Assembly: GCF_003323745.1 (NCBI RefSeq) | Contig: NZ_QOIL01000008.1 | Coordinates: 124,001 to 188,000 of the forward strand | DNA: 64,000 nucleotides | Direction: 5' to 3' | From: Sphaerisporangium album | GTDB lineage: Bacteria; Actinomycetota; Actinomycetes; Streptosporangiales; Streptosporangiaceae | Shown: in pieces, positions 13,946-38,407 of the stretch | Layout of the letters: each line of letters begins with the position of its first letter | How positions within the stretch are numbered: position 1 is the first letter of the stretch | Notes under the pieces: generated by a model | Databases searched by the model: none | Told to the model about the DNA's origin: nothing | What the model saw: only the letters and a program-made list of their open reading frames with translations | Made by a program: the position numbers and the translations under genes

Positions 13946-15606
13946 GACGCGTGCACCTCCTGCCGCCGCACGACGTAGGGCCCGATCACGAGCACGTCCA
14001 CCGGCGCGGAGCCGAAGCATTCGAGGGCGTCGCGCGGGTCGTCCACCATGGGACGGCCCGCCGTGTTCAGGCTCGTGTTGATCACCACAGGCAGCCCGGT
14101 GCGGGCCTCGAAGCACTCCAGCACCCGGGCGAGCAGCGGCTCGGCCACCGCGTCCACGGTCTGGGCGCGCGACGTCCCGTCCACGTGCACCACCGCCGGG
14201 ATCCGGTCGCGCCACTCGGGCCGCACATCGTGCACGAACGTCATGTACGGGCTCGGCAGCGGCCCGCGTGCGAAGATCTCGGGCGCCCGGGCGGCGAGCA
14301 CCATCGGCGCGATGGGCCGGAACTGCTCGCGGCCCTTCACCGCGTTGAGCCGCTCGGTGTTCGCGGCGTGCCCCGGGTGCGCGAGCAGCGAGCGCCGCCC
14401 GAGCGCCCGCGGCCCGAACTCCGAACGGCCCTGGAACCAGGCGACGATCCGGTCGGCGGCCAGCTCGGCGGCGACCGCGTCCGCCAGGTCCGCGGGCCTC
14501 TTGTACGGGACGCGCGCCGCGACCAGCCACGCTGCCAGTTCCTCGTCCGTCCACCCCCGGCCGAGCGCGGCGCCCGCCATCGGCGCCACCGGCTCGCCGT
14601 ACGCCTGCGCGAGGTGCAGCGCGCCGCCGAGCGCCGTCCCCGCGTCGCCCGCCGCCGGCTGCACCCAGATGCCGGCGAACGGCCCCTCGTCCAGCAGCCG
14701 GGTGTTGGCGACGCAGTTCAGCGCCACCCCGCCGGCCATCGTCAGGCACCGTTCCTTCGTGCGCTCGTGCAGCCACCCGGCGAGTTCCAGCAGCACCTCC
14801 TCCAGCCGCGCCTGGACGCTGGCCGCCAGGTCGGCGTGGTCGCCCGTCCAGGGCTCGCCGCGGCGCAGGGGCTTGGCGTACCCGCTCCAGTCGATCGGCT
14901 CCACGCGGAAGCCGCCGTCCCCGGTCGTGTGGACCAGCTCGCGCAGCGCGCCGAGGTGGCGCGGCTCGCCGTACGCCGCCAGGGCCATCACCTTGTACTC
15001 GTCGCTGGAGCGCAGGAAGCCCAGGTGCGCCGTGACCTCCTCGTACATCAGTCCCAGCGAGTGGGGGAGCTCCTGCGTGGCGAGGACGGTCAGCTCGCCG
15101 TCGCGGTAGTGCCCGGCCAGGTGGGATACCGCCTCGCCCCGGCCGTCGCAGACCAGCACGGCCGAGTCGCGGTACGGCGCGGCCAGGCCCGCGGACGCGG
15201 CGTGCGCGATGTGGTGCGGGACGTACTTGACCTGCGCGGTGTCCAGGCCGGGCAGCGCGGTCGCTAGGAAGGCGGGGGCGCGGCGCGCGTACGTGGTGCG
15301 CAGCTCCTCCCAGTGCGCGGCCATTCCGCGGTCGCCGGCCGCCTTCGTCCCCGTGTCGTCTGCTTTGACCAGCTCGGGATCGTAGGAGTAGGCGACGCCG
15401 TCCAAATCCTCGGGACGCAGCCCGGCCTGCTCCAGGCACCAGGCCGCGGCCTGCTCGGGCAGTTCCCACGCCGAGAAGGGCACCGGGCGCTTGCCGTGTT
15501 TACGGCGGCTGAACCGCTCTTCCTCCGCGGCCGCCACGACCTCCCCGTCCACCACGAGGGCCGCCGCAGGGTCGTGGAATATTGCGTTGATCCCCAGAAA
15601 CCGCAT
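13942..15606 (-). CDS. O-carbamoyltransferase, NodU/CmcH family
   Basis: A 554-residue enzyme of the NodU/CmcH/TobZ family, which transfers a carbamoyl group from carbamoyl phosphate via carbamoyl-AMP to a hydroxyl of a sugar or antibiotic. Seen: an N-terminal ASKHA-like domain with HDPAAALVVDGEVVAAAEEERFSR cut by KHGKRP, the metal-site region PHHIAHAASA, MAGGVALNCVANTRLL, and the C-terminal domain FGPRALGRRSLLAHP and FRPIAPMVL. The length fits the family. The start at 15606 is well supported by GGAGGT seven bases upstream. It is the first gene of the leftward glycan operon, facing the gmhB-like gene across a 368-bp divergent region. Carbamoylation of a heptose is a reasonable guess but not shown. 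Confidence 0.92.
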   Translation of the reverse strand: MRFLGINAIFHDPAAALVVDGEVVAAAEEERFSRRKHGKRPVPFSAWELPEQAAAWCLEQAGLRPEDLDGVAYSYDPELVKADDTGTKAAGDRGMAAHWEELRTTYARRAPAFLATALPGLDTAQVKYVPHHIAHAASAGLAAPYRDSAVLVCDGRGEAVSHLAGHYRDGELTVLATQELPHSLGLMYEEVTAHLGFLRSSDEYKVMALAAYGEPRHLGALRELVHTTGDGGFRVEPIDWSGYAKPLRRGEPWTGDHADLAASVQARLEEVLLELAGWLHERTKERCLTMAGGVALNCVANTRLLDEGPFAGIWVQPAAGDAGTALGGALHLAQAYGEPVAPMAGAALGRGWTDEELAAWLVAARVPYKRPADLADAVAAELAADRIVAWFQGRSEFGPRALGRRSLLAHPGHAANTERLNAVKGREQFRPIAPMVLAARAPEIFARGPLPSPYMTFVHDVRPEWRDRIPAVVHVDGTSRAQTVDAVAEPLLARVLECFEARTGLPVVINTSLNTAGRPMVDDPRDALECFGSAPVDVLVIGPYVVRRQEVHAS

Positions 15607-24127: not shown

Positions 24128-24508
24128 TCAAGGAGTCTCCGCCTGGTGCCCGGCGGGGATCAGCGACAGCGCGGGACTCCCGTGCTGGTGTGTGGAGAGG
24201 TCGAACAGGACCTCGACGCCGGCGTGGCCGGCCCAGGCGGCCTTGAGGACTTCCCGGTGCTCGATGTCGACGGGATGGGTGGACTGCTGGAAGACGGCCT
24301 GGGATCGGGCCGAGTCCTCCTCCTCCAGGGCGTAGACCATGAGCGGCCCCGCCGGGGTGTCCACCAGGAGGACGGTCTCGTGCCGCACGCCCTCCTCCTC
24401 GAACGTGGCGAGGATCTCGTCCCGGCGCGGGCCGGACAACGTGGCGAACCATTCACGCAGCCGGTCCACCTGATCGGACTCGACCCTGCTGACCGAAACC
24501 CTGAGCAT
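24128..24508 (-). CDS. DUF6176 family protein
   Basis: A 126-residue soluble protein recognised as DUF6176-like from the pattern SVSRVESDQVDRLREWFATL, then a charged helix RDEILATFEEEGVRHE, VYALEEED and HPVDIEHREVLKAAW. The family has a ferredoxin-like alpha+beta fold and no established function. It is the last gene of the leftward RiPP-type operon, 30 bp downstream of the peptidase gene. ATG 24508 is preceded directly by an in-frame GTG (24511); neither has a strong ribosome-binding site. A role in the pathway is inferred only from position. Confidence 0.65.
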   Translation of the reverse strand: MLRVSVSRVESDQVDRLREWFATLSGPRRDEILATFEEEGVRHETVLLVDTPAGPLMVYALEEEDSARSQAVFQQSTHPVDIEHREVLKAAWAGHAGVEVLFDLSTHQHGSPALSLIPAGHQAETP

Positions 24509-24538
24509 CACGCAACCCCGTAGGTGTCGACGCCGGAC

Positions 24539-26050
24539 TCATCCAAGACGGTCCAGCCAAGAGAAGAAAGGAGGAAAGACCCGCCGGGCCGCGTGGTCGG
24601 AGAGCATGCCGTGGCCCTCGCCCTCGATGGCCACCCATTCCGATCCGGACGGCAGGTCGTCCAGGTGGGCGCTGACCGCCTCGACGGGGATGCGCGGGTC
24701 TCGCTCGCCGTGCGCGACGAAGTGCGGCACGGCGGCGAACGGCACATGTGCCGCGAAGCGGCCGGCCGCCGTCCGCAGGAAGGCCTCGACCTGCGGATGC
24801 CCGGACCCGTCGAGATCCGAGGGCCGCAGGAAACCGCCGAGCAGGAACACGCCACGCACCTCGGGCGCCATCCGGGCGACACGGCTCGCCAGATAGCCCC
24901 CGTAGCTCATCCCGCCGACCACGACCGGGCCGACCGCGGTCCGGCCCAGCACGGTCAGCGCGTCGTCCGCGTCGTCCACGCCGTAGAGTCCCGGCAGCGG
25001 AGCGCGGACCGCGGGATCGACGAGCCCGCTGCCGCGCAGGTTCGGCTGGACGACGCGCCAGCCGGCCAGCGCCAACGACTCGGCGAACGGCGACCAGGTC
25101 GCCAGGTTCGACCCGTTCGGGCCGCCGTGCAGCAGCAGCACGGTGCCACGCGCCTGGCCCGGGGGGTCGCGCAGCAGGGTGGGCAGGGGACAGTGCGGTC
25201 CCTCGATGACGGTGCAGACGGCGGAAGGCAGGCCGGGGGCGTCCGGCGCGGCAGGGCTCAGCCGGACCTGTTCTCCGCCGGCCAGCCGTCCCGCCTCGAT
25301 GAGCTCCAGCCGGCGCGGCTGCCCGGGGGAGGTCCAGCTCAGGCCGACGAGGTCACCTTCGGCCCGCACGTCGTCCACCACGATCTGGTCGGGCCCGACC
25401 AGGCGGCGCAGCGCCCCCGAGCGGACGTGCCAGGCGTACGGGATGCGTCCCGGCCAGGCCTCCAGGACCACGACGACCTCGTGCTCGGACAGCCACGGCC
25501 CGGCCGAGATCACCGGGCCGTCCCAGTGCGAGACGCCGTCGCGGTCCACGCACACGACCCGGCGAGCCCTGCCCTGGCGCAGCAGCAGGGCGATCCGGTC
25601 GTGTCCGGGGAACGCGGGCACGACGCACTCGGCCGTCGCCCCGGGGGGCAGCCGCACCTCCCCGGCGACCGGATGCGCGACGGCACGCCCGTCGCGGGTC
25701 AGGAGCGCGGGCGGCTCGGCGTACTCCCGTTCCGCGCCGATGCCGGCCAGCGGTATCGGCACGCTGTTCGCCCGCTCGGCCGCGAGGTCCTGGAACACCT
25801 CGGCCACCAGGCGCCCACCGGTCCACTCCGGCCGCGAGTGCCATCGGGACCCGGTGGTGAGCCTGGTCCACCGGCCGTTCGCGAGCAGCGCGAGGTGGCG
25901 GTCGGACCAGGCGTCGGTGCTGACCACCGGACCGGCGGGCGTGAGCGCGAACGCCGGCCGTGAGGCGTCGAGCTGCGCCCGCCGGAACGGGGTGGGCAGC
26001 GGCCCGGTGATCTCCGGCGACCGGTCGGGCAGCGGAACGACGTCCGGCAT
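24539..26050 (-). CDS. S9 prolyl-oligopeptidase-like serine peptidase
   Basis: A 503-residue protein with the two-domain layout of S9 peptidases. An N-terminal beta-rich (propeller-like) part spans about 1-270; the C-terminal alpha/beta-hydrolase domain contains VLLLHGGPNGSN (oxyanion region), GGMSYGGYLAS (nucleophile Ser, about residue 378), GERDPRIPVE (catalytic Asp) and EGEGHGML (catalytic His). The full triad is therefore present. The start at 26050 is supported by GGAGGAAGG. It lies 27 bp after the SRPBCC-PDZ gene in the RiPP-type cluster, so removal of a leader peptide or of an intracellular protecting peptide is an attractive role, but a general peptidase is equally consistent with the sequence. 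Confidence 0.87.
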   Translation of the reverse strand: MPDVVPLPDRSPEITGPLPTPFRRAQLDASRPAFALTPAGPVVSTDAWSDRHLALLANGRWTRLTTGSRWHSRPEWTGGRLVAEVFQDLAAERANSVPIPLAGIGAEREYAEPPALLTRDGRAVAHPVAGEVRLPPGATAECVVPAFPGHDRIALLLRQGRARRVVCVDRDGVSHWDGPVISAGPWLSEHEVVVVLEAWPGRIPYAWHVRSGALRRLVGPDQIVVDDVRAEGDLVGLSWTSPGQPRRLELIEAGRLAGGEQVRLSPAAPDAPGLPSAVCTVIEGPHCPLPTLLRDPPGQARGTVLLLHGGPNGSNLATWSPFAESLALAGWRVVQPNLRGSGLVDPAVRAPLPGLYGVDDADDALTVLGRTAVGPVVVGGMSYGGYLASRVARMAPEVRGVFLLGGFLRPSDLDGSGHPQVEAFLRTAAGRFAAHVPFAAVPHFVAHGERDPRIPVEAVSAHLDDLPSGSEWVAIEGEGHGMLSDHAARRVFPPFFSWLDRLG

Positions 26051-26077
26051 CTTGGCCTTCCTCCACGTGGTTCGCGG

Positions 26078-26797
26078 TCAGGAGGGCGTGTACTGCTTCG
26101 CCCGCAGCACCACCGGCACCAGGCGGTCCCCGACCAGCAGCTCCACCCGTTCCCCCGGCCGGTGGCTCTCGACCCACGCGTCCAGGTCGTCCAGGCTGCC
26201 GAACACGAAGTCGCCGCAGGAGCGGATGACGTCGCCCGCGCGGACCCCGGCCAGGTCGGCGGGCGCGCCGACGGCCACGTCCTGCACCAGCATGCCCTCA
26301 CCGCGAATGGCTCCGACGGGGATCACCCCGAGCTCGGTCTTGTGCATGGTGTGGTAGTTCTTCGGCGTCCCGTCCAGGTAGTCGCCGAGCAGCTCCAGGA
26401 AGTGGTCCCAGTGGTGCAGGAAGCCGTCGCGCTCGAACCTGCCGTTGCCGTCCGCGGGGAAGCCGTCCTGCTGGAGCTTCAGGCGGGTGTGGGTGTCCCC
26501 CGATTCCGTCGGCACGTCCGTCAGCTCGAACGTCATCCGGATCTCGGCGTCGCAGGCGACGAGGCCGATCACCAGTTCCAGGCGGCGGAACCGGTCCAGG
26601 ACCTGGATCCGCCCGCTGTAGGTGGTCGGCATGCGCGCGCCGGGGTCGTAGATCCAGCACAGCGCCGCGCCCTCGCGCTCGGGCATGACACTGGCCACCG
26701 TGCCCAGCCAGTGCTCGGCCGCTCCCGGGTCGAAGATGGTCTGCCAGACCTTCTCCCGGGGGTGCCGCAGCAGGCGTTCCAGGCTGTTGCTCTCCAT
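26078..26797 (-). CDS. SRPBCC (AHSA1/START-like) domain fused to a PDZ domain
   Basis: A 239-residue protein. Residues about 1-140 form an SRPBCC/AHSA1-like hydrophobic-cavity domain: RHPREKVWQTIFDPGAAEHW, then RMTFELTD and HHWDHFLELLGDYLDG. Residues about 153-236 are a PDZ domain: GVIPVGAIRGEGMLVQDV, GAPADLAGVRAGDVIRSCGD, then a final strand VELLVGDRLVPVVLRA. PDZ domains bind C-terminal peptides, so in a peptide-biosynthesis cluster this could chaperone the precursor or hold it for the modifying enzymes; that is inference. GAAGGAG precedes ATG 26797. It sits 13 bp after the MFS exporter gene. I know of no standard enzyme with this pairing. Confidence 0.85.
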   Translation of the reverse strand: MESNSLERLLRHPREKVWQTIFDPGAAEHWLGTVASVMPEREGAALCWIYDPGARMPTTYSGRIQVLDRFRRLELVIGLVACDAEIRMTFELTDVPTESGDTHTRLKLQQDGFPADGNGRFERDGFLHHWDHFLELLGDYLDGTPKNYHTMHKTELGVIPVGAIRGEGMLVQDVAVGAPADLAGVRAGDVIRSCGDFVFGSLDDLDAWVESHRPGERVELLVGDRLVPVVLRAKQYTPS

Positions 26798-26810
26798 CGT
26801 TTGCTCCTTC

Positions 26811-28103
26811 TCATGCTGACTGACTGTCGGCCGGGGGCGCCGTCAGCTCCGCGACCCGGGACCGCGTGATCGTGACGCTGGCGAACACGGCCAGCGCGAG
26901 CATGATCGCGCCGGCGACCACGAACGACATGCGCAGCCCGGACAGCGAGGCGAGGACGCCGCCCAGCAGCGCGCCGAACGGCATCGCCCCGTAGGTGACC
27001 AGCCGGTGCACGCCGGTGACCCTGCCGAGCAGGTGGTCCGGTGTGCCGGACTGCCGCAGGGACATCTGGTTGACGTTCCAGATCGCGGCGCCGAGCCCGG
27101 CCAGGATCTCCCCGGCCCCCGCGGTCCACACGTTCGGCGCCGCGGCGGTGACCAGGCACGCGACCCCCGCCACGACCAGCGCCAGCCGGAGGCTGACCGC
27201 CGTGCCGAACCACTTGTTGAGCCGCCCGGCCTGCGCCGCGCCGAAGAGGGCGCCGAAGGAGCCCACGGCGAGCAGCAGGCTGAAGCCGAAGGCGCCGAGG
27301 CCGAACACCTGCTGGGCGAAGAGCACGAAGATGGCGCTCTGCGCGAGGCACGCGACGTTGAACAGGCCGGCTATGCCGGTGATCGCCCGCAGGACCGGCT
27401 GCCGCCACAGCCAGGTGAAGCCCTCACTGATGGCCTGCCGCAGGCCGATGTCGCCGAGGGTGTTGCGGGCGACGTGGTAGTCGCCCCGCATCCTGCGCAG
27501 GAGGACGGAGCTGACCAGGAAGGACACCGCGTCGCCGAAGAAGGGCACCGACCGCGACACGCTGAACAGCAGACCGCCGAGGGGCGGCCCGACGAAGGAT
27601 TCCACCGTGTTCCGCGACCCGACCAGCCACGAGTTGGCCCGCTGGATCTTCTCGGGGTCGTTCGCCACCACCTTGGGCAGTACGGCGGTGCTGGCGCTGT
27701 CGAACACGGTGTCGGCGATGGCGATCAGGAAGCCCACCACCATCAGCAGGGCGATGCCGGCGGATCCGGTCGCCACGGCCACGGCGAGCCCCGCGGTCAG
27801 CCCGGCGCGGACCAGGTCGCTGATCCACATGGCGCGTTTGCGGTCCCACCGGTCGGCCATGACGCCCGCGGGCAGGGCGAACAGCAGCCAGGGCAGCCTG
27901 CCGACGACGACCACGGACGACACCACGATCGGGTCGCTGGACAGCGTGGCCGCCAGCAGCGGCAGCGCCGCGGAGGAGATGCCGTTGCCGAGGAGCGACA
28001 CGGTCGTCGCCCCCCACAGCATGGGGAAGTCGGGGGCGAGCGCGGACAGGCCGAACCGGCCCGGCCGGCGAGGGGGACTCGCGTTGTGCAGGGTGTCCGC
28101 CAT
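26811..28103 (-). CDS. MFS exporter, MFS_3/EntS-like
   Basis: A 430-residue transporter with about 12 hydrophobic helices. It begins with a short basic tail and FPMLWGATTVSLLGNGISSAA; the loop after helix 2 has ADRWDRKRAMWISDLVRAG, the MFS motif A variant seen in the EntS/MFS_3 group, which exports siderophores, peptides and antibiotics. The position directly after the oxygenase gene suggests it exports the modified peptide or gives self-resistance. ATG 28103 follows the oxygenase stop in a TGATG overlap; the TTG just upstream is less likely. No substrate can be inferred from sequence. Confidence 0.88.
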   Translation of the reverse strand: MADTLHNASPPRRPGRFGLSALAPDFPMLWGATTVSLLGNGISSAALPLLAATLSSDPIVVSSVVVVGRLPWLLFALPAGVMADRWDRKRAMWISDLVRAGLTAGLAVAVATGSAGIALLMVVGFLIAIADTVFDSASTAVLPKVVANDPEKIQRANSWLVGSRNTVESFVGPPLGGLLFSVSRSVPFFGDAVSFLVSSVLLRRMRGDYHVARNTLGDIGLRQAISEGFTWLWRQPVLRAITGIAGLFNVACLAQSAIFVLFAQQVFGLGAFGFSLLLAVGSFGALFGAAQAGRLNKWFGTAVSLRLALVVAGVACLVTAAAPNVWTAGAGEILAGLGAAIWNVNQMSLRQSGTPDHLLGRVTGVHRLVTYGAMPFGALLGGVLASLSGLRMSFVVAGAIMLALAVFASVTITRSRVAELTAPPADSQSA

Positions 28104-29434
28104 CAACGGTCCTTTCTGTCAGGTGCGCCGGGGGGGAGAGGCTCGGGCGCGAGGTCGAGTCGCAGCAGGCCATGCCGGAGCAACTCCGCCACCAGTTCGC
28201 GGCCCTCGCCGGCGGACGGCCCGCCTTCGCCGGAGACCGCGCGGACCAGCTCGTCCACCCGCCATGGGGTACGGGCGAGCAGCCGCCGCACCAGGGGGGC
28301 GCAGACGGCGTCGAAGTCGTAGCGCTTGCCGGCGGACACCAGGACGCACCGGCCCCCGTCCTCGCGCAAGGCGACCGGCCGGGGCGAGGCCAGCACCACG
28401 ACGGCGTCCGGCGGGCAGTCGCCGTCCTGCCCGGACGCCGCGTACGGCAGTGAGTGCCGGGGCCTGGCCTGCGCGCGCCCGTCCCTTTCGGCGACGTACC
28501 GGCGCAGCCCGTCCTCGGTGAGCAGGGCGCCGATCTCCTCCCGCAGCACGGACAGGCGGCTCGCCGTCTCGTCGTCCCACCCGCTGAGCGGCAGGTCGTG
28601 GCGCGCCTCCGGGAGGCGGCGCTGCCGCTCGACCGCCCACTTCAGGAAGTCCTCGACCACCGGCCGCCGGAAGCCGATGGTGAGGTGGACGGTGGTGCCG
28701 CCCACCGGCCGGACGGCGTGCCAGTGGCCGCGCGGCACGTACAACGCCTCGCCCTCGCGCAGCTCGAACTGCCGCCAGGGGGTCGCGGGGCATTCGTTGA
28801 GGGGCTCGTCGCCGGGCAGCGGCACGGGACGGCCGACGCCGAACAACTGCCATTCCTTGCGGCCGTAGATCTGCAGGATGAGCCCGTCGTGGTCGTCCCA
28901 GTGCGGGTCGAAGGCGCCGACCTCCCCCCAGGAGGCGTAGAGGTTGACGAACACCTCCGCGCGCAGGTCGTGTTCGAGGGCTTCGGCGAGGTCCCGGACC
29001 GCCGGAACGGCTTCGTCCACCGAGCCGAAGACCAGCGTCGCGCCCTCGCGCAGCCGGGCGTGCAGTTTCGTGCTGCTGACGCGTAGCGCGGGTTCCCTGC
29101 CGACGCCCCGGCCCGGGATCGGCTCGACGTAGGACGACGGGGGCAGCGACTTGTTCGCCCTGGCCACCTGCATGCGCAGCGGCCATGCCCGGTGGCCGTC
29201 GAGCAGCCGGTTGAGCTCGGCCCAGGGCAGCAGGTGGTGGAAGCGGTCCGGCTCGCCGGTGTCGTGGTAGCAGTCCCTGCCCCAGTACCGGTCGAGGAAC
29301 CGTTCACCGGTCATGGTGCCGAGAACGCGGTCCAGCGCGTGGCCGCCCACGCCGGTGTCGCCGGGGCTCGGCCCTGGCAGGTCGGACAGGGGGTCCAGCT
29401 CGGCGACCGCGAGCAGCCTGCGTGTGTCGGCCAT
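28103..29434 (-). CDS. JmjC/cupin_4-type 2-oxoglutarate-dependent oxygenase
   Basis: A 443-residue protein of the bacterial ribosomal-oxygenase-like (RoxA/MINA/NO66) group. The double-stranded beta-helix holds the iron ligands: HWDDHDG supplies His178 and Asp180, and His250 in TVHLTIGF is the third. KEWQLFG and EALYVPRGHWHAV are typical of the fold. The C-terminal part (about 300-443) is helical, with a winged-helix-like end (RRLLARTPWRVDELVRAV). Relatives hydroxylate side chains of ribosomal proteins; in a cluster with a precursor peptide and a YcaO enzyme it may hydroxylate the peptide. ATG 29434 has GGGAG upstream, 14 bp after the TPR gene. Confidence 0.87.
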   Translation of the reverse strand: MADTRRLLAVAELDPLSDLPGPSPGDTGVGGHALDRVLGTMTGERFLDRYWGRDCYHDTGEPDRFHHLLPWAELNRLLDGHRAWPLRMQVARANKSLPPSSYVEPIPGRGVGREPALRVSSTKLHARLREGATLVFGSVDEAVPAVRDLAEALEHDLRAEVFVNLYASWGEVGAFDPHWDDHDGLILQIYGRKEWQLFGVGRPVPLPGDEPLNECPATPWRQFELREGEALYVPRGHWHAVRPVGGTTVHLTIGFRRPVVEDFLKWAVERQRRLPEARHDLPLSGWDDETASRLSVLREEIGALLTEDGLRRYVAERDGRAQARPRHSLPYAASGQDGDCPPDAVVVLASPRPVALREDGGRCVLVSAGKRYDFDAVCAPLVRRLLARTPWRVDELVRAVSGEGGPSAGEGRELVAELLRHGLLRLDLAPEPLPPGAPDRKDR

Positions 29435-29448
29435 GATCACTCCCGAGG

Positions 29449-30672
29449 TCAGACGTCGGCCCGGTGGGCGGGCAGGCGTGCGGCCGGATCCAGGTCCAGC
29501 AGGAGGCGGCGGGCGTGCTCGGCCTCCTCCGGCCGCTCCAGCCGCTCCGCGCACACGGCCGCCGCGTTCGCCGCCGACGCCCCGCGCAGCGTGCCGGAGC
29601 CCGCGGCGCGCAGGAACGTCTCCAGCGCGGCCTCCCAGTCGCCGCGCCCGGCGAGGTAGGCGCCGATCGCGTAGAGCGGCTCGGGATCGACGGGGTCGAG
29701 GGCGAGCAGTTGCCCGGTGGCGTCGTCGGGGGCGCTCGCCGAGCCGGTCAGGGTGTCCAGCTTGAGGTGGGCCTCCAGCACCAGCCCGCGGTTCTCCCGC
29801 TGGTAGTGGGCCTGCACCGGGTTCTCGGCCGACCGCGCCAGGGCGTCGTCGTGTGCCAGGGCGTCGCGCATGTGCGCGACCACCGGGTCCGGGTCGCGGC
29901 CGGACAGCTTGTGCAGCGCGGCGGCGCGGTGGTAGCGGCTGGTCACCAGGTGTGCCAGCCAGCCGGGCTCCTGGCCGAGATCGGCGAGGGACCGCTCGGC
30001 CTCGGCGAGCCATCGGGCCGCCTCCTCCCGGTCGCTGCCACGGCTGCGGGTGGAGACCAGTTGGAGGGCCGCAAGGGTGCGCAGAGCCGGGCGGACGGCG
30101 TTACAGGCCAGCCAGCCGAAGATCTCGTACGGGACGGCGGACTTCCTGTTGAGCTGGTAGGCCGCGCGGGCCACTTCGTAGGCCAGCTGCTGGCGGAGCG
30201 GGTCGGCGTCGATGGCGACGTTGCCGACCAGGCGTACCGCGTGGCGGTGGAAGCCGAGCTGCGTGAGCAGGGCGACGACGACGACCCGGCGTGCCGCCGG
30301 CAGTTCGTCCCAGCGCTCCAGCGCCTCGACGAGGGCCTGCCAGCGCGGCGAGCGCACCTCGCCGGGGAGCTCGGCGGGCTGTCCGCACAGGTGCCGGTGG
30401 CTTCTGGCCTGCACGATGACCTGGTAGCGGGAACTGGTCACGGACACCGTGCTGAACCAGTTGGGCACGACCGCCTCCTCCTCGCCGGTGAGCATCCGGG
30501 CGAGGTGGACGGCGTGCCGGGAGCGCAGCGGGGCGGGGCCGGGGGGATCGCGCAGGTCCAGCCACCCGGTCCAGCGCCGGGCCAGTTCGGCCGTATCGAG
30601 CGCGTCCGCCGTCGGGAACCACAGCTCGCCGAATGACCGGGAGTCGTCGCGCTGATAGGCGAAGGAAGGCAC
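29449..30672 (-). CDS. TPR-repeat protein of unknown function in the RiPP-type cluster
   Basis: A 407-residue, mostly helical soluble protein. No catalytic motif is visible. The C-terminal third has TPR-like helix pairs (PEPLYAIGAYLAGRGDWEAA, then a continuing helix ETFLRAAGSG, and NAAAVCAERLERPEEAEHAR), and further helical repeats cover about 120-300. The N-terminus (MPSFAYQRDDSRSFGEL) does not match a family I recognise. GTG 30672 has AGGAG six bases upstream; the YcaO stop is nine bases before it, so the two are probably co-translated. A scaffolding or precursor-binding role is a reasonable guess from its place between two modifying enzymes, but nothing in the sequence proves it. Confidence 0.75.
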   Translation of the reverse strand: MPSFAYQRDDSRSFGELWFPTADALDTAELARRWTGWLDLRDPPGPAPLRSRHAVHLARMLTGEEEAVVPNWFSTVSVTSSRYQVIVQARSHRHLCGQPAELPGEVRSPRWQALVEALERWDELPAARRVVVVALLTQLGFHRHAVRLVGNVAIDADPLRQQLAYEVARAAYQLNRKSAVPYEIFGWLACNAVRPALRTLAALQLVSTRSRGSDREEAARWLAEAERSLADLGQEPGWLAHLVTSRYHRAAALHKLSGRDPDPVVAHMRDALAHDDALARSAENPVQAHYQRENRGLVLEAHLKLDTLTGSASAPDDATGQLLALDPVDPEPLYAIGAYLAGRGDWEAALETFLRAAGSGTLRGASAANAAAVCAERLERPEEAEHARRLLLDLDPAARLPAHRADV

Positions 30673-30681
30673 GTGGGGCTC

Positions 30682-31722
30682 CTAAACCACTGGGCAGGGC
30701 AGGTGGGAGGCCGGGGTGAGCGGCTCGAAGACCTCCGAGCCGTGGCACACGACGCGGTGCACCACGTGGTCGTCGGTGGAGGGCAGCAGCACCTCGACCG
30801 GCTGGCGCCCGAACAGGGCGTCCGCGGCGTCCAGCAGTGCCGCCGGGTCGGCCGGGGCCCGCCGGAGGGCGCCGCGCCCCGCGATCCGGCGCTCGACGAA
30901 GTCCAGGTGGGCCGCGCCGGCCGCGGCCACGGCGTGTCCTCTGTCCCTGTCGCGGCTCTGCAGGGCGCTCGACGGGCGCGCGCCCAGTGCGAGCCTGGCC
31001 GCGACCGCCTCGTAGACGGCGTGCCGTACGGCGTCGGCGGTGTCGCCTCTCGCCGCGGCGCCGCAGGTGAGGGCGGCACCGCCGGCTCGATGCAGCAATG
31101 CGAGCACGATGTCCGGGTACGGCCGGGTCACGCGGACGACGCGCAGGACGACCTCGTGGTCGCGCAGGCCGGCGAGCAGCCCCGCGGGCAGCACCAGCTC
31201 ACGCAGGTGGTCCAGGTCCTCGAAGCTGATGTCGCCGGTGCGCCAGCCGCGGGCCAGCACGTGCCGCTCGATCACTTCCAGCAGCGCGGCCGTCCGCGCG
31301 TGCCGCCGGTCCGTGCCCGCGCCGGTGCCGGCGGAGGTCTGCACGCACCACCGCTCCTCGGGCGGCGGCGGGTCCCAGCCGAGGAAGACCGCCTGGGCCG
31401 GCACGGCCGTCTCGGCGCCGTCGCGCATGCCGGTTCCGGCCACCCAGTGGCAGGGCGGCGAACCGGCGTCCAGCAACGCGGCGGGTTCGACCCTGGGCAG
31501 TGCGCCGGGATCCGCCAGCAGCGGCAGCACACCGGCCGCCGACACGTGGCTCACGTGCTGGACGTACTCGCCGAGCGCGCGCCGCGCCGCCCGGCCGGGG
31601 TCGTCGTCGCAGGCACCGCCGCTGATCCCGTTCTCGTCGCTCATCCAGGCGACGTGGACGGCGCCGTTGATCAGAGGGCGCACCGTGGGCCCGGCGGCCC
31701 GCACCGCTCCCCGGTGGCTCAT
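30682..31722 (-). CDS. stand-alone YcaO-domain enzyme
   Basis: A 346-residue YcaO protein. Recognisable ATP-binding elements: RAARRALGEYVQHVS (Glu52), SAGTGAGTDRRHARTAALLE and VIERHV (Glu149, Glu152), and CGAAARGDTADAVRHAVYEA (Glu238) with a following SRDRDRGH. YcaO enzymes use ATP to activate backbone amides, giving azolines with an adjacent Cys/Ser/Thr, or thioamides or amidines. No E1-like/ThiF partner or flavin dehydrogenase lies nearby, so it belongs to the stand-alone type. The C-terminus (CPVV) lacks the proline-rich PxPxP tail of azoline-forming cyclodehydratases. ATG 31722 has AGGAG five bases upstream. It is the first enzyme gene after the precursor peptide. Confidence 0.85.
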   Translation of the reverse strand: MSHRGAVRAAGPTVRPLINGAVHVAWMSDENGISGGACDDDPGRAARRALGEYVQHVSHVSAAGVLPLLADPGALPRVEPAALLDAGSPPCHWVAGTGMRDGAETAVPAQAVFLGWDPPPPEERWCVQTSAGTGAGTDRRHARTAALLEVIERHVLARGWRTGDISFEDLDHLRELVLPAGLLAGLRDHEVVLRVVRVTRPYPDIVLALLHRAGGAALTCGAAARGDTADAVRHAVYEAVAARLALGARPSSALQSRDRDRGHAVAAAGAAHLDFVERRIAGRGALRRAPADPAALLDAADALFGRQPVEVLLPSTDDHVVHRVVCHGSEVFEPLTPASHLPCPVV

Positions 31723-31771
31723 ACTCACTCCTTGGCGAACATCGACCGTCACTCCGGGTGCGGACGCGGCG

Positions 31772-31792
31772 GGGTGCCTGCGCAGGCGACCC
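31772..31792 (-). terminator. hairpin between precursor and YcaO genes, possible attenuator
   Basis: The perfect palindrome GCCTGCGCAGGC (31776-31787) is extended by GGGT and ACCC (one bulged base), giving a stem of about 8-10 bp. It lies in the 132-bp gap between the 25-aa peptide gene and the YcaO gene. Partial termination here would give more precursor than enzyme transcript, a common arrangement in RiPP operons. Confidence 0.5.
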
Positions 31793-31854
31793 ACCCCACC
31801 ACGTCCTTCCGATCGGCCGCTCCCAGGTCACGGGCGTGCGGACGACCTACGCGG

Positions 31855-31932
31855 TCAGTAAGACTTGTTGCCGAGGACGTCGAACTCTGCGGCTTCCTCG
31901 TCGACCTGACCCAGGTCCCAGCTGATCTCCAT
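31855..31932 (-). CDS. 25-residue putative RiPP precursor peptide
   Basis: A short open frame reading MEISWDLGQV at its start and EFDVLGNKSY at its end. ATG 31932 is preceded by AGGAGGTGA with eight bases between, the best ribosome-binding site in this cluster; a GTG at 31944 in frame would add four residues. It is the first gene of the leftward cluster, followed by a hairpin and then the YcaO gene, as expected for a RiPP precursor. The acidic helical-looking first part (DLGQVDEEAAEF) would be the leader and the last residues (about GNKSY) the modified core; Ser24 and Tyr25 or the Asn-Lys backbone are candidate sites. Assignment rests on context and ribosome-binding site only; I do not recognise the peptide. 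Confidence 0.7.
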   Translation of the reverse strand: MEISWDLGQVDEEAAEFDVLGNKSY

Positions 31933-32113
31933 GGATGCGTTCACCTCCTCCCGTGGTGCGTGGAATCTTGGCGGGCGCGGAGGTCTGGCGCACCTTTTGG
32001 ATTGCTATGTTCGCTGCCTTGTCAGAAGTCGTGGTCGTCGGCGAGCCTGCTGCCGCCAACGGTCGAGGGCCCCATCCCGTGAGGAACCGCGGTGCTCCGA
32101 GCATGGTGTCGGC

Positions 32114-32150: not shown

Positions 32151-32384
32151 TCATGTGCGGTCTTCGGAGAGCGGCCTGTCCGATTCACGGCTTGCCGGTC
32201 GTGAGCTCCGGGCGTTTTCGGGGCCGCCCCATTCGGCGAGGAGGACCGCGCCGAGCATGAGGGCGGCTCCCGTCCAGCCGAGGGCTGTCAGGCGGTCGCC
32301 TGCGAGCCAGAAGCCGAAGAGGCCGGCGAAGGCCGGTTCGGTGGCGAGGATGAGGGAGGCACGGACCGGGGAGGTGGGCGTCCT
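32151..32384 (-). pseudogene. C-terminal remnant of an EamA/DMT-family permease
   Basis: About 75 residues match the end of EamA-type drug/metabolite transporters: TSPVRASLILATEPAFAGLF followed by GFWLAGDRLTALGW and MLGAVLLAEW, the last two membrane helices. The remaining roughly 220 residues and a plausible start are missing; the sequence upstream loses similarity abruptly near 32384. Probably the trace of a deletion or insertion at the border of the RiPP-type cluster. Confidence 0.7.
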
Positions 32385-35509: not shown

Positions 35510-38407
35510 GTGGAATACCGGCTCCTCGGTCCCATGCGGGTCCGCGGCTCCACCGGCCAGGAGGTTTCCGTCGCCCGCCCGAAACACCGCCAGGTTCTCG
35601 CCGCGCTGCTCTCGGCCGCGGGCAGGGTCGTCACGACGGACCACCTCATGGGCCACCTGTGGGAGGGCTCGCCGCCCCCGTCGGCCCGGGGCAACCTCAA
35701 GACGTACGTCTCGGCGCTGCGCAGGCTGCTGTCGCCCGACGATCCCGCGTCCGCGCCGATCGAGACCGTCGGGGACGGCTACCGCATCGTCGTCCGGCCG
35801 GGCGAGCTCGACCTGCTGACGTTCACCGATCTGGTCGCACGGGGCCGCGAGGCGGGGAAGGCGGGCGACGTCCGTAAGGCCGGGGTGCTGTTCGAGCAGG
35901 CCCTGGACCTGTGGCGCGGCAAGGCGTTCGAGGACATCCCCGTCACCGTGCGGCTCGCCGAAACCGTCGCGCACTTCGAGGACGAGCGGGTCGGCGCCTT
36001 CGAGGACTGGATCGAGGCTCGGCTGGCGCTCGGCATGCACGCCGAGGTGATCGGCCGACTACGGCCCTGGCTGAGGGACCACCCTTTGAGGGAACGGCCG
36101 TGGGGCCAGATGATGCTCGCGCTGGCTCGCGACGGCAGGCGGGCCGACGCGCTGAGCACCTTCCAGGAGCTCAGGACGCGCCTCGTGGACGAACTCGGAG
36201 TCGAGCCCGGCTTCCCGCTCCAGGAACTGCACCGGCGCGTTCTGGCCGGGGACCCGGGCCTGTTCCCCGAGCCTCCTGCGCAGACGTCCGAGGGCTCCCG
36301 CGCCGCCGAGGGCGACCGTCCCGCCGCCCCGGCCGGTGACGAGGAAACGGTCACGGTCGTGCCGAGGGAGCTGCCGTCCAACATCCCCTTCTTCGTCGGC
36401 CGCCAGAAGGAGATCCGCAGACTGGAGTCCTGGCTGAACCCTCCGGGCGACGCGATTCCCACCCCTGTGGTCGCCATCTGCGGACCTCCCGGGGCCGGCA
36501 AGTCGGCGCTCGGGCTGCGCGTCGCCCATATGGTCGCCGGGCGGTTCCCCGACGGGCAGGTGTACGTGAACCTGCGCGGCGCCATGCCGGGCGTGCGGCG
36601 GCTCGACACCTCCGAGGTGCTCGGCCGCATCCTGCGCGCGTTCGGCATGCCCGGCCCGCGGGTGCCCACGGACGTCGACGAGGCCGCGGCGGCGCTGCGC
36701 ACCCTGCTGCACGGCAAGCGGGCGCTGATCCTCCTGGACGACGCCGCCTCGGTCGCCCAGGTGAGCCCGGTCGTTCCGACGACACCCGGGTCGGTCGTGC
36801 TGCTCACCTCGCGCGAGAGCTTCGCCTACCTGGCGCCCGCGTCGCAGGTCAACCTGGGCCGCATGTCCCATACGGAGGCTTCGACGATGCTCACCCGGCG
36901 GTTCACGTCGGGGGGTGTCGAGTTCACCGAGGAGTCCGTGCAGCGGCTGGTCGTCCTGTGCGACCGGCTCCCGCTCGCCCTTCATGTGGCCGGAGCCCGG
37001 CTGGCCAGCCGGGCGAGCTGGTCGGCGGACAACCTCATCGAGCGGCTGCACAACGAGGGCCGGCGTCTCGACGAGCTGCACACCGGGGAAAGCGGTGTCC
37101 GCGGCAGCATCGCGGTCAGCTACGCCGGGCTCGCCGAGAGCACGCAAGCGATCGACCGCGCGGCCGCCACTGCGTTCCGCCTGATCGGCACCATCCGCGT
37201 CCCCGAGCTCGGGGCGGAAGCCGTCGCCGCGCTGCTGGACGTGCCCGCCCGCGCGGCGGAGCAGGCGATCGAGCGGCTCGCCGACGCGAACCTCATCGAC
37301 AGCCCGGCCCCTGGTCGCTACACCATGCACGACCTGGTGAGGCTTTACGCGCAGGAACGCGCGGTGGACGCCGAGCCGCCCGAACGGCGGACGGAGGCCC
37401 TGCACCGCGTGCTCGGCTTTTTCATCGCCACGACGGTCAGGGCCGCCAGGCTCGTCGACCCTCATCGCGTGCACGCGAAGGCACCCGAGATCCCGCAGGC
37501 TCCGCTGCCGCTCGCGGACCGGGACGAGGCCGAGCGATGGCTGCACCGGGAACAGCCCAACATGCTGGCGCTGATCGGTCAGACCACGGACGCCGACGAC
37601 GTCACGGTCGGCCTCGCGGCGGCCCTCGCCCTGGCGATGCAGTGGCATCTGTACACCAACGGGTATCGCGAGGAGGGGTTGTCGCTCGGGCGCATGGCCT
37701 TGGCGACGACGCGGCGGTTCGGCGATCGGCGGAACGAGGCGCAGGCGCTGTCCATGATGTACTTCGCGTGCCGCCAACTGGGCCGCGTCGAAGAAGAGCT
37801 CACGTACATGTACACCGAGCTGGATCTGAGCCGCGAGTCCGGCGACTCGTTCGCCGAACTGCGGTCGCTCGGCAACATCGCCAGCCACCACATCGTCGGC
37901 GGGCGCAACGCCGAGGCGCTCGACTACGCCTGGCAGCAGCTTGCCGTCAGCCGGCGCGCGGGCTCGGCGGTCGGGGAGCGGTACGCCCTCATGATGGCCG
38001 GACAGGCGCAAACCGCCCTCGGAAGGTTCGAGGAGGCCATCATCGTGCTGAAGCAGGCGCTGGACATGGCGAGCGAGGTGGGGGACGCCCTGCACGAGGC
38101 GATGGCACATCGCCGCCTCGGGGTCGCCCACCTCCTGCGCGGGGAGGTCCTGACCGCCCGCGCCTTCCTCCTCGACGCGCTCAGTGCGTACGAGCGGACG
38201 TCATGGCATCCCGAACTATCCGGGACGCTGACCGCGCTCGCCCGGTGCAGCCGCCTGCTCGGAGACATGGAGCAGGCGTACGAATACATCACGGCCAGCC
38301 TGAAGACGGCCCTGTTGAGCAGCGACCCGGGAGACGAACGACGCGCCGTCGAAGAACAGGCCGAGATCTTCGCGGGTAGCAGGAAGAATTCCGTGAGCGG
38401 CCTGTGA
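35510..38407 (+). CDS. SARP/AfsR-family transcriptional regulator (wHTH-BTAD-NB-ARC-TPR)
   Basis: A 965-residue regulator. Residues 1 to about 95: OmpR-type winged helix (YRLLGPMRVRGSTGQEV, then RPKHRQVLAALLSAAGRVVT). About 100-245: BTAD domain (FEQALDLWRGKAFEDIP and ELRTRLVDELGVEPGFPLQ). About 295-620: NB-ARC ATPase with P-loop GPPGAGKSAL (residue 325 onward), Walker B ALILLDDAA and LCDRLPLALHVAGA. About 640-965: TPR repeats. This is the AfsR-like architecture that binds direct repeats in promoters and activates secondary metabolism in actinomycetes. GTG 35510 has GGAGG upstream. The nearest biosynthetic clusters are the RiPP-type cluster (3.6 kb left) and the fatty-acid-synthase-type cluster (about 7.4 kb right); which it controls is unknown. 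Confidence 0.93.
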   Translation: MEYRLLGPMRVRGSTGQEVSVARPKHRQVLAALLSAAGRVVTTDHLMGHLWEGSPPPSARGNLKTYVSALRRLLSPDDPASAPIETVGDGYRIVVRPGELDLLTFTDLVARGREAGKAGDVRKAGVLFEQALDLWRGKAFEDIPVTVRLAETVAHFEDERVGAFEDWIEARLALGMHAEVIGRLRPWLRDHPLRERPWGQMMLALARDGRRADALSTFQELRTRLVDELGVEPGFPLQELHRRVLAGDPGLFPEPPAQTSEGSRAAEGDRPAAPAGDEETVTVVPRELPSNIPFFVGRQKEIRRLESWLNPPGDAIPTPVVAICGPPGAGKSALGLRVAHMVAGRFPDGQVYVNLRGAMPGVRRLDTSEVLGRILRAFGMPGPRVPTDVDEAAAALRTLLHGKRALILLDDAASVAQVSPVVPTTPGSVVLLTSRESFAYLAPASQVNLGRMSHTEASTMLTRRFTSGGVEFTEESVQRLVVLCDRLPLALHVAGARLASRASWSADNLIERLHNEGRRLDELHTGESGVRGSIAVSYAGLAESTQAIDRAAATAFRLIGTIRVPELGAEAVAALLDVPARAAEQAIERLADANLIDSPAPGRYTMHDLVRLYAQERAVDAEPPERRTEALHRVLGFFIATTVRAARLVDPHRVHAKAPEIPQAPLPLADRDEAERWLHREQPNMLALIGQTTDADDVTVGLAAALALAMQWHLYTNGYREEGLSLGRMALATTRRFGDRRNEAQALSMMYFACRQLGRVEEELTYMYTELDLSRESGDSFAELRSLGNIASHHIVGGRNAEALDYAWQQLAVSRRAGSAVGERYALMMAGQAQTALGRFEEAIIVLKQALDMASEVGDALHEAMAHRRLGVAHLLRGEVLTARAFLLDALSAYERTSWHPELSGTLTALARCSRLLGDMEQAYEYITASLKTALLSSDPGDERRAVEEQAEIFAGSRKNSVSGL

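Follow-up and report, generated by a model that had tools for sequence, protein, structure and literature searches.

The window analysed here, a 64,000-nucleotide stretch of the Sphaerisporangium album genome (contig NZ_QOIL01000008.1, positions 124,001 to 188,000), carries on its minus strand, at window positions 24128–31932, a compact block in which the gene of a 25-residue peptide is followed by the genes of a stand-alone YcaO, a tetratricopeptide repeat (TPR) protein, a JmjC-type oxygenase, a major facilitator superfamily (MFS) transporter, an SRPBCC-PDZ fusion, an S9 peptidase and a DUF6176 protein. All eight genes, their order and their spacing were found as given in a preliminary description of this DNA. 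Comparison with relatives points to a new YcaO peptide family, with a predicted product, among the ribosomally synthesised and post-translationally modified peptides (RiPPs). Tentatively, we propose that the block is a self-contained cassette in which the JmjC protein hydroxylates Asn22 of the precursor and YcaO closes an azoline at residue 22.

A search with the YcaO across 341 genomes of the window's family gives matches at 1e-12 in nine, the window's genome included. Specifically, these are four of the 11 genomes of the window's genus (the window and loci L016, L017 and L018) and the genomes of Streptosporangium sandarakinum (L021), Streptosporangium sp. KLBMP 9127 (L019), S. pseudovulgare (L022), Nonomuraea sp. 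SBT364 (L020) and Nocardiopsis endophytica (L023); their nine clusters, from five lineages, form the sample used throughout. Scanning the contigs of the named genomes with a profile of six aligned YcaOs recovers five loci in the same five genomes, and a scan of these contigs with a single YcaO gives no match. Additionally, the profile finds only the window's genome and one already counted (G309) among 394 genomes sampled from the class, and plasmid records searched at 1e-5 give no match. As far as searched, the cassette family is rare and is met only in the window's actinobacterial family.

Gene content, determined by tblastn searches (1e-3) of each 19.5-kb locus, reveals a constant set of precursor, YcaO, TPR protein, MFS transporter and S9 peptidase in all nine clusters, the L023 MFS protein being found by Pfam only (MFS_1 29.3 bits, below the cut-off of 33.4). 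The SRPBCC-PDZ gene is present in the eight clusters whose precursor ends in KSY, the JmjC gene in six and the DUF6176 gene in four (window, L019, L021 and L022). JmjC is an optional tailoring gene, not a core one, and DUF6176 is probably peripheral. The YcaO–JmjC pairing that headed the preliminary description thus stands for six clusters and is missing from the other three, and DUF6176, counted there as a cluster gene, keeps that place in the window and in fewer than half of the clusters. In L020, the TPR and MFS genes overlap by four bases with no JmjC gene between them; in L019, they are separated by 168 bp, again without JmjC, and the best protein match to a JmjC remnant in this gap (E 0.21) does not allow one to be claimed. 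The three genomes whose clusters lack JmjC carry other JmjC genes, on other contigs. The L023 cluster of Nocardiopsis, which has neither SRPBCC-PDZ nor JmjC, is followed downstream by genes for an O-methyltransferase, an FAD-binding-domain protein and a protein that matches alpha/beta-hydrolases weakly.

The precursor gene (31855–31932) lies upstream of YcaO in all nine clusters. Directly 5' of it is a strong ribosome-binding site, GGAGGAGGTG, within an upstream region (31933–32006) that, by nucleotide similarity, is conserved together with the block. The peptide, MEISWDLGQVDEEAAEFDVLGNKSY, is identical in the window, L016 and L017, and that of L018 differs by its ANKSY ending; the others are MEISWDLGQVDEEAQEFDVLGNKSY in L021 and L022, MDSNIWDLGQVDEEAQEFDVLGTKSY in L019, MEVTWDLGEVDESAEEFDVLGTKSY in L020 and MQETVESTMEFDWDLGVQEDDQDYPVLLCTDYMA in L023. 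Relative to the window, synonymous/nonsynonymous codon differences are 2/0 in L016, 3/0 in L017, 3/1 in L018, 6/1 in L021, 5/1 in L022 and 8/2 in L019 (from the Trp on), and L020, with 3 synonymous and 6 nonsynonymous differences, is the exception to this mostly silent divergence. The leader motif WDLG is kept in all nine, including L023, where YcaO identity is down to about 35%; L023 also keeps VL, and the conserved leader pattern reads WDLG, then F/Y-x-VL. By tblastn the L023 precursor match is weak (E 0.034). Its peptide scores 52 against the family, a value reached by 0 of 5000 shuffles, and is the top-scoring segment of its 19.5-kb locus (46 versus 30 for the next). The C-terminal part differs in L023, and the core of the other eight barely varies; a conserved leader combined with a variable end, as in RiPP precursors, may be present, though real variation is confined to L023. 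We propose that residues 1–20 or so form the leader and residues 21–25 or so (GNKSY) the core.

This comparison supports well the earlier suggestion of a RiPP-type cluster with the 25-residue peptide as its substrate. YcaO, TPR protein and short peptide occur together in all nine clusters, and the peptide ends in KSY in eight; YcaO–JmjC sets of the same family without the peptide, which would have spoken against it, are absent from the nine. A peptide with a core of only about five residues might instead be a scaffold or signal, the enzymes having as their target a host protein or a different small molecule, much as the substrate described for Escherichia coli YcaO (EcYcaO) is a protein and not a peptide (PMC13063428). 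We regard this as very improbable, given that the peptide is adjacent and conserved in all nine blocks and that its residue 22 covaries with a block enzyme.

That enzyme is the JmjC protein (28103–29434; JmjC_2 PF08007, 9.5e-21), which shows both features of ROX-type Fe(II)/2-oxoglutarate oxygenases, an iron triad in the PF08007 domain and a C-terminal winged-helix domain. The triad residues H184, D186 and H245 (numbered from the frame starting at 29452), which we take to be the iron ligands from the HxD...H pattern of the family, are invariant in all six JmjC proteins. The part comprising residues 344–433 resembles the winged helix of MINA53/NO66 and the RiPP recognition elements (RREs), giving the C-terminus an RRE-like fold, and the predicted model of the protein is poor except in this region. 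In line with the distribution of JmjC, precursor residue 22 (window numbering) is Asn in all six JmjC-positive clusters; in the JmjC-less ones it is Thr in L019, Thr in L020 and, in L023, Cys followed by Thr, Cys22 being assigned by counting ungapped from the conserved VL. From Trp to Tyr, residue 22 is the sole difference between the L019 and L021 peptides. In the best-supported tree, built from five concatenated proteins with L023 left out, L019 and L021/L022 are sister groups (Shimodaira–Hasegawa-like approximate likelihood ratio test 99.1, ultrafast bootstrap 98), and JmjC and residue 22 must therefore have changed together two times or more. The same grouping has a support of 70 when L023 is included and of at most 56 in the single-protein trees of YcaO, SRPBCC-PDZ and S9 peptidase, and it is absent from those of the TPR and MFS proteins. 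The agreement between JmjC and residue 22 fits a JmjC protein acting on Asn22, the more so because Thr and Cys commonly serve YcaO enzymes as nucleophiles and Asn, to our knowledge, does not.

On this basis, we propose a mechanism in which the precursor leader would be bound by the YcaO/TPR pair, and the JmjC protein may use its own winged helix for the leader. The JmjC protein would hydroxylate Asn22, the beta carbon being the simplest site, and so supply the hydroxyl that Thr has in the JmjC-less clusters, and YcaO would activate the carbonyl of residue 21 and close an azoline on residue 22. The predicted rings are a methyloxazoline from Thr, a thiazoline from Cys in Nocardiopsis and a carboxamide-bearing oxazoline from hydroxy-Asn in the window. 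Modification would fall within the last five residues (GNKSY), which the S9 peptidase would cut free and the MFS transporter would export. These steps differ in firmness. Hydroxylation of Asn22 by the JmjC protein is probable, and the S9 peptidase probably serves as leader protease rather than in immunity; leader binding and MFS export we infer. An azoline at residue 22 is a tentative assignment, one that we hold a shade less readily than the reading as a whole. It is rather doubtful that hydroxylation primes the ring, that is, that the new hydroxyl of hydroxy-Asn22 acts as the YcaO nucleophile and yields a carboxamide-bearing oxazoline where the JmjC-less relatives simply encode Thr or Cys.

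The YcaO itself (30682–31722; 346 residues, PF02624, 6.2e-28) keeps the Glu motifs, as do all nine aligned sequences, and a search of solved structures with the YcaO profile gives no match at E 0.01. Its best NCBIfam model is SagD (TIGR03604), on which the five YcaOs scored, out of nine, reach 52–68 bits against a cut-off of 219; a true SagD-type protein, met as a YcaO match among 397 genomes sampled from another order (G704) and not a member of the family, scores 295 bits. On the thioamide model TIGR03266, the five score at most 25.7 bits, versus 269 bits (cut-off 365) for the TfuA-partnered YcaO of the window's own genome. The profiles thus lean weakly to azoline-forming SagD rather than to the thioamide type.

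Several points temper the reading of hydroxylation and an azoline at residue 22. The TfuA-type YcaO also scores on the SagD model, with 116 bits, and therefore the profile argument for an azoline is weakened; the SagD score of the window's YcaO is itself low. Additionally, only five lineages are available, in which the chance of the JmjC/residue-22 agreement is 0.1 by our own arithmetic, and the covariation is therefore a lead, not proof; the evidence that it supplies is modest.

The low SagD score would also suit the same cassette with a YcaO that installs a backbone thioamide, giving a peptide with a hydroxylated residue beside a thioamide. A parallel is described in E. coli, where YcaO, which carries a 150-residue TPR domain, thioamidates Met82 of the ribosomal protein uL16 beside the RoxA-hydroxylated Arg81, without TfuA (PMC13063428). 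Likewise, the YcaO–TfuA pair of the std cluster is reported to thioamidate the Asn of an SNKEWQE core, which also contains Asn-Lys (PMC13174530), and Gly occupies residue 21 in seven of the eight KSY-type peptides. A thioamide appears rather unlikely here, however: no TfuA (PF07812) is present among the seven block proteins covered by the Pfam scan, the TIGR03266 scores lie far below that of the same-genome TfuA partner, and a thioamide alone leaves the need for a hydroxyl or thiol at residue 22 unexplained.

A further alternative is raised by Lys23, Ser24 and Tyr25, which do not vary among the eight KSY peptides. YcaO might form an amidine through attack by the Lys23 amine or by a chain amine, or close an oxazoline on the invariant Ser24, and hydroxylation of Asn22 would then be an independent decoration; a stand-alone actinobacterial YcaO cluster is described as making the amidine streptamidine (PMC8442711). 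We consider this unlikely, since the Nocardiopsis peptide does not conserve Lys and Ser despite the same YcaO/TPR pair, and the JmjC/residue-22 match is not predicted beyond hydroxylation itself. An azoline at residue 22 would account for this match and is the reading that we tentatively prefer.

The TPR gene (29449–30672; 407 residues) stands directly 3' of YcaO in all nine clusters. All Pfam TPR matches of its product are below cut-off (best E 0.047), and the TPR label of the preliminary description, weak from the single sequence, gains support from a profile search and a predicted model. Specifically, a profile of six relatives matches engineered consensus TPR structures (best 1.8e-15), and the model is almost all helix with a mean predicted local distance difference test score of 81; among the best 50 rows of a Foldseek search, this model matches repeat proteins of other kinds. 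We propose that the TPR protein is a partner of YcaO or a leader-binding scaffold. In 394 genomes, a search with the TPR protein gives matches in three, two being clusters already counted. The third (G568, L034 9110–11950) is a 946-residue frame with two similar stretches, with a YcaO match no better than E 0.25 in the surrounding 18.7 kb, and is not a member.

The limits of the conserved unit follow from a comparison of window positions 15000–42000 with the 19.5-kb loci, in which matches longer than 100 bp were considered. In L016, L017 and L018, nucleotide similarity of 86–93% identity runs from window 24518–24529 to 31977–32008 and ends on both sides, stopping upstream at 32006 and 32008 in L016 and L017; outside the block, the three loci show a single 320-bp, 67% match, in L018, 4.5 kb from its block. 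The conserved unit therefore reaches from the precursor through the S9 peptidase, and in L019, L021 and L022 the block extends into DUF6176. Presence in four of 11 species of the genus, in differing surroundings, is suggestive of horizontal transfer or of recurrent loss. An empty-site search with the window flanks established no empty site, each flank matching 11 of 11 genus genomes; many left-flank matches are scattered repeats of one domain.

Downstream of JmjC, the block encodes an MFS transporter of 430 residues, presumably an exporter (26811–28103; MFS_3, 3.1e-31), an SRPBCC (AHSA1)-PDZ fusion of 239 residues (26078–26797; AHSA1 5.5e-8 and PDZ_2 1.1e-7), an S9/alpha-beta-hydrolase-type peptidase of 503 residues (24539–26050; Abhydrolase_1 1.6e-16 and Peptidase_S9 1.2e-7) and the DUF6176 protein of 127 residues (24128–24511; 1.7e-13). 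The Ser, Asp and His that presumably form the peptidase triad, as assigned from familiar motifs, are kept in all nine clusters. From DUF6176 to YcaO the intergenic gaps are 27, 27, 13, −1, about 14 and 9 bp, and YcaO and precursor are 132 bp apart. A hairpin between these two genes has strong-looking stems and is not claimed, because its folding energy lies within that of shuffles (z −1.86 to 0.15, seven of nine clusters tested). Just outside the block, a 99-residue frame at 32151–32450 matches the end of the EamA transporter domain (3e-6, slightly below cut-off) and is perhaps a rearrangement scar. About 3.6 kb upstream of the block, 35510–38407 encodes a Streptomyces antibiotic regulatory protein (SARP)-type regulator (BTAD 1.7e-42, NB-ARC, TPR); it lies outside the conserved block and therefore gives no evidence for control of the block.

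Other loci link JmjC or YcaO genes in different settings. The window's genome has a second YcaO/JmjC region (L059, G000:C11, 129–7133) with JmjC, JmjC, S9 peptidase, thioamide-type YcaO, TfuA, JmjC and GNAT acetyltransferase genes; its contig begins 128 bases upstream, and a precursor could have been lost beyond that end. In Nocardiopsis endophytica, another JmjC protein, 34.5% identical over 359 residues, lies near an S9-like peptidase, so labelled from reading (L054, G129:C36, 8344–12172), together with a peptide of 35–38 residues, MEFEVEVEDLGEVTSRDLTAGGGDNDGTDGSSDFI, that shares DLG with the cassette leader; whole-genome YcaO searches of this species match at the L023 cluster only, not at L054. 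A Nonomuraea locus (L055, G178:C309, 6623–9474) carries in a row a frame with NYTQRGGG/SYNQSGGG-like repeats at its end, a radical S-adenosylmethionine (SAM) enzyme and a JmjC protein. At L057 (G316:C43, 6704–10187), an arginase-family protein, a JmjC protein and a cupin-like protein stand in a row, recalling the arginase and JmjC of biphenomycin. A lantibiotic dehydratase complete with N and C domains lies close to a 75-residue protein and a JmjC protein at L058 (G217:C30, 3266–9524), and at L056 (G218:C55, 8114–10322) a JmjC protein is followed by two look-alike proteins of 168 and 158 residues, the first without a Pfam match.

The cassette adds a rare peptide family defined by a constant precursor, YcaO, TPR protein, MFS transporter and S9 peptidase, and its 25-residue precursor may evade searches aimed at longer peptides. 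A TPR protein as the sole constant neighbour of a stand-alone YcaO would be a new way of presenting substrate. If hydroxylation does prime the ring, an optional JmjC would convert a residue not expected to be cyclised by YcaO into a cyclisable one, and a tailoring hydroxylase would enlarge the repertoire of residues open to cyclisation by YcaO enzymes; the Asn22/Thr22 difference offers a one-residue test of enzyme order.

Compared with known systems, the block shows the mark of a RiPP cluster, a short precursor beside a modifying enzyme, conserved as a unit in all nine clusters. Bottromycin clusters have two stand-alone YcaOs, whereas the block has one. It shares with SagD-type azoline pathways the best NCBIfam model of its YcaO, yet this YcaO falls far below the cut-off, and an E1-like partner, an azoline dehydrogenase and a Cys/Ser/Thr-rich core are missing. 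In agreement with the preliminary description, the scan of the seven block proteins reveals no E1-like or ocin-ThiF partner, azoline dehydrogenase, lanthionine enzyme or radical SAM enzyme. Streptamidine (ami) clusters resemble the block in a stand-alone actinobacterial YcaO adjoining a short precursor; in the published passages at hand, however, their precursors have 31–89 residues and the main subset carries FecBCDE genes, AmiB/C/E and ABC transporters (PMC8442711), whereas the block has a 25-residue precursor, another gene set and none of the ami genes. The YcaO–TfuA thioamide RiPPs of thiovarsolin and std type likewise combine YcaO, a short precursor and an MFS transporter, the std core being described with Asn-Lys (PMC6511847, PMC13174530), but the block is without TfuA and its YcaO does not have a thioamide-type profile. 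In E. coli, a TPR-domain YcaO and the JmjC-type hydroxylase RoxA are described as modifying neighbouring uL16 residues; there, the target is a folded ribosomal protein with no precursor gene nearby (PMC13063428), and the window's TPR protein is a separate one. Published passages on TPR (PMC10352776) deal with Bacteroidales clusters. JmjC hydroxylases are already known in RiPP pathways through biphenomycin (PMC12707348), whose bip/bpm operon also comprises a precursor, an MFS transporter and the JmjC hydroxylase BipG acting on a core residue (PMC12707348, PMC12257519), and whose clusters have one gene also annotated as TPR (PMC12707348). It differs in its multinuclear non-haem iron oxidative enzyme (MNIO), B12 radical SAM enzyme, arginase activity and TldD peptidase, with no YcaO named in the passages available (PMC12707348, PMC12257519); the scan finds no MNIO, B12 radical SAM enzyme, arginase or TldD peptidase among the seven block proteins. 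Among the literature matches listed, which lie largely outside subscription journals, no report describes the YcaO, TPR and JmjC set or the precursor. As the azoline (SagD), YcaO–TfuA, streptamidine, bottromycin and biphenomycin systems each differ from the block at a defining feature, we file it, by its sequence, as a new YcaO-RiPP family with a predicted product.

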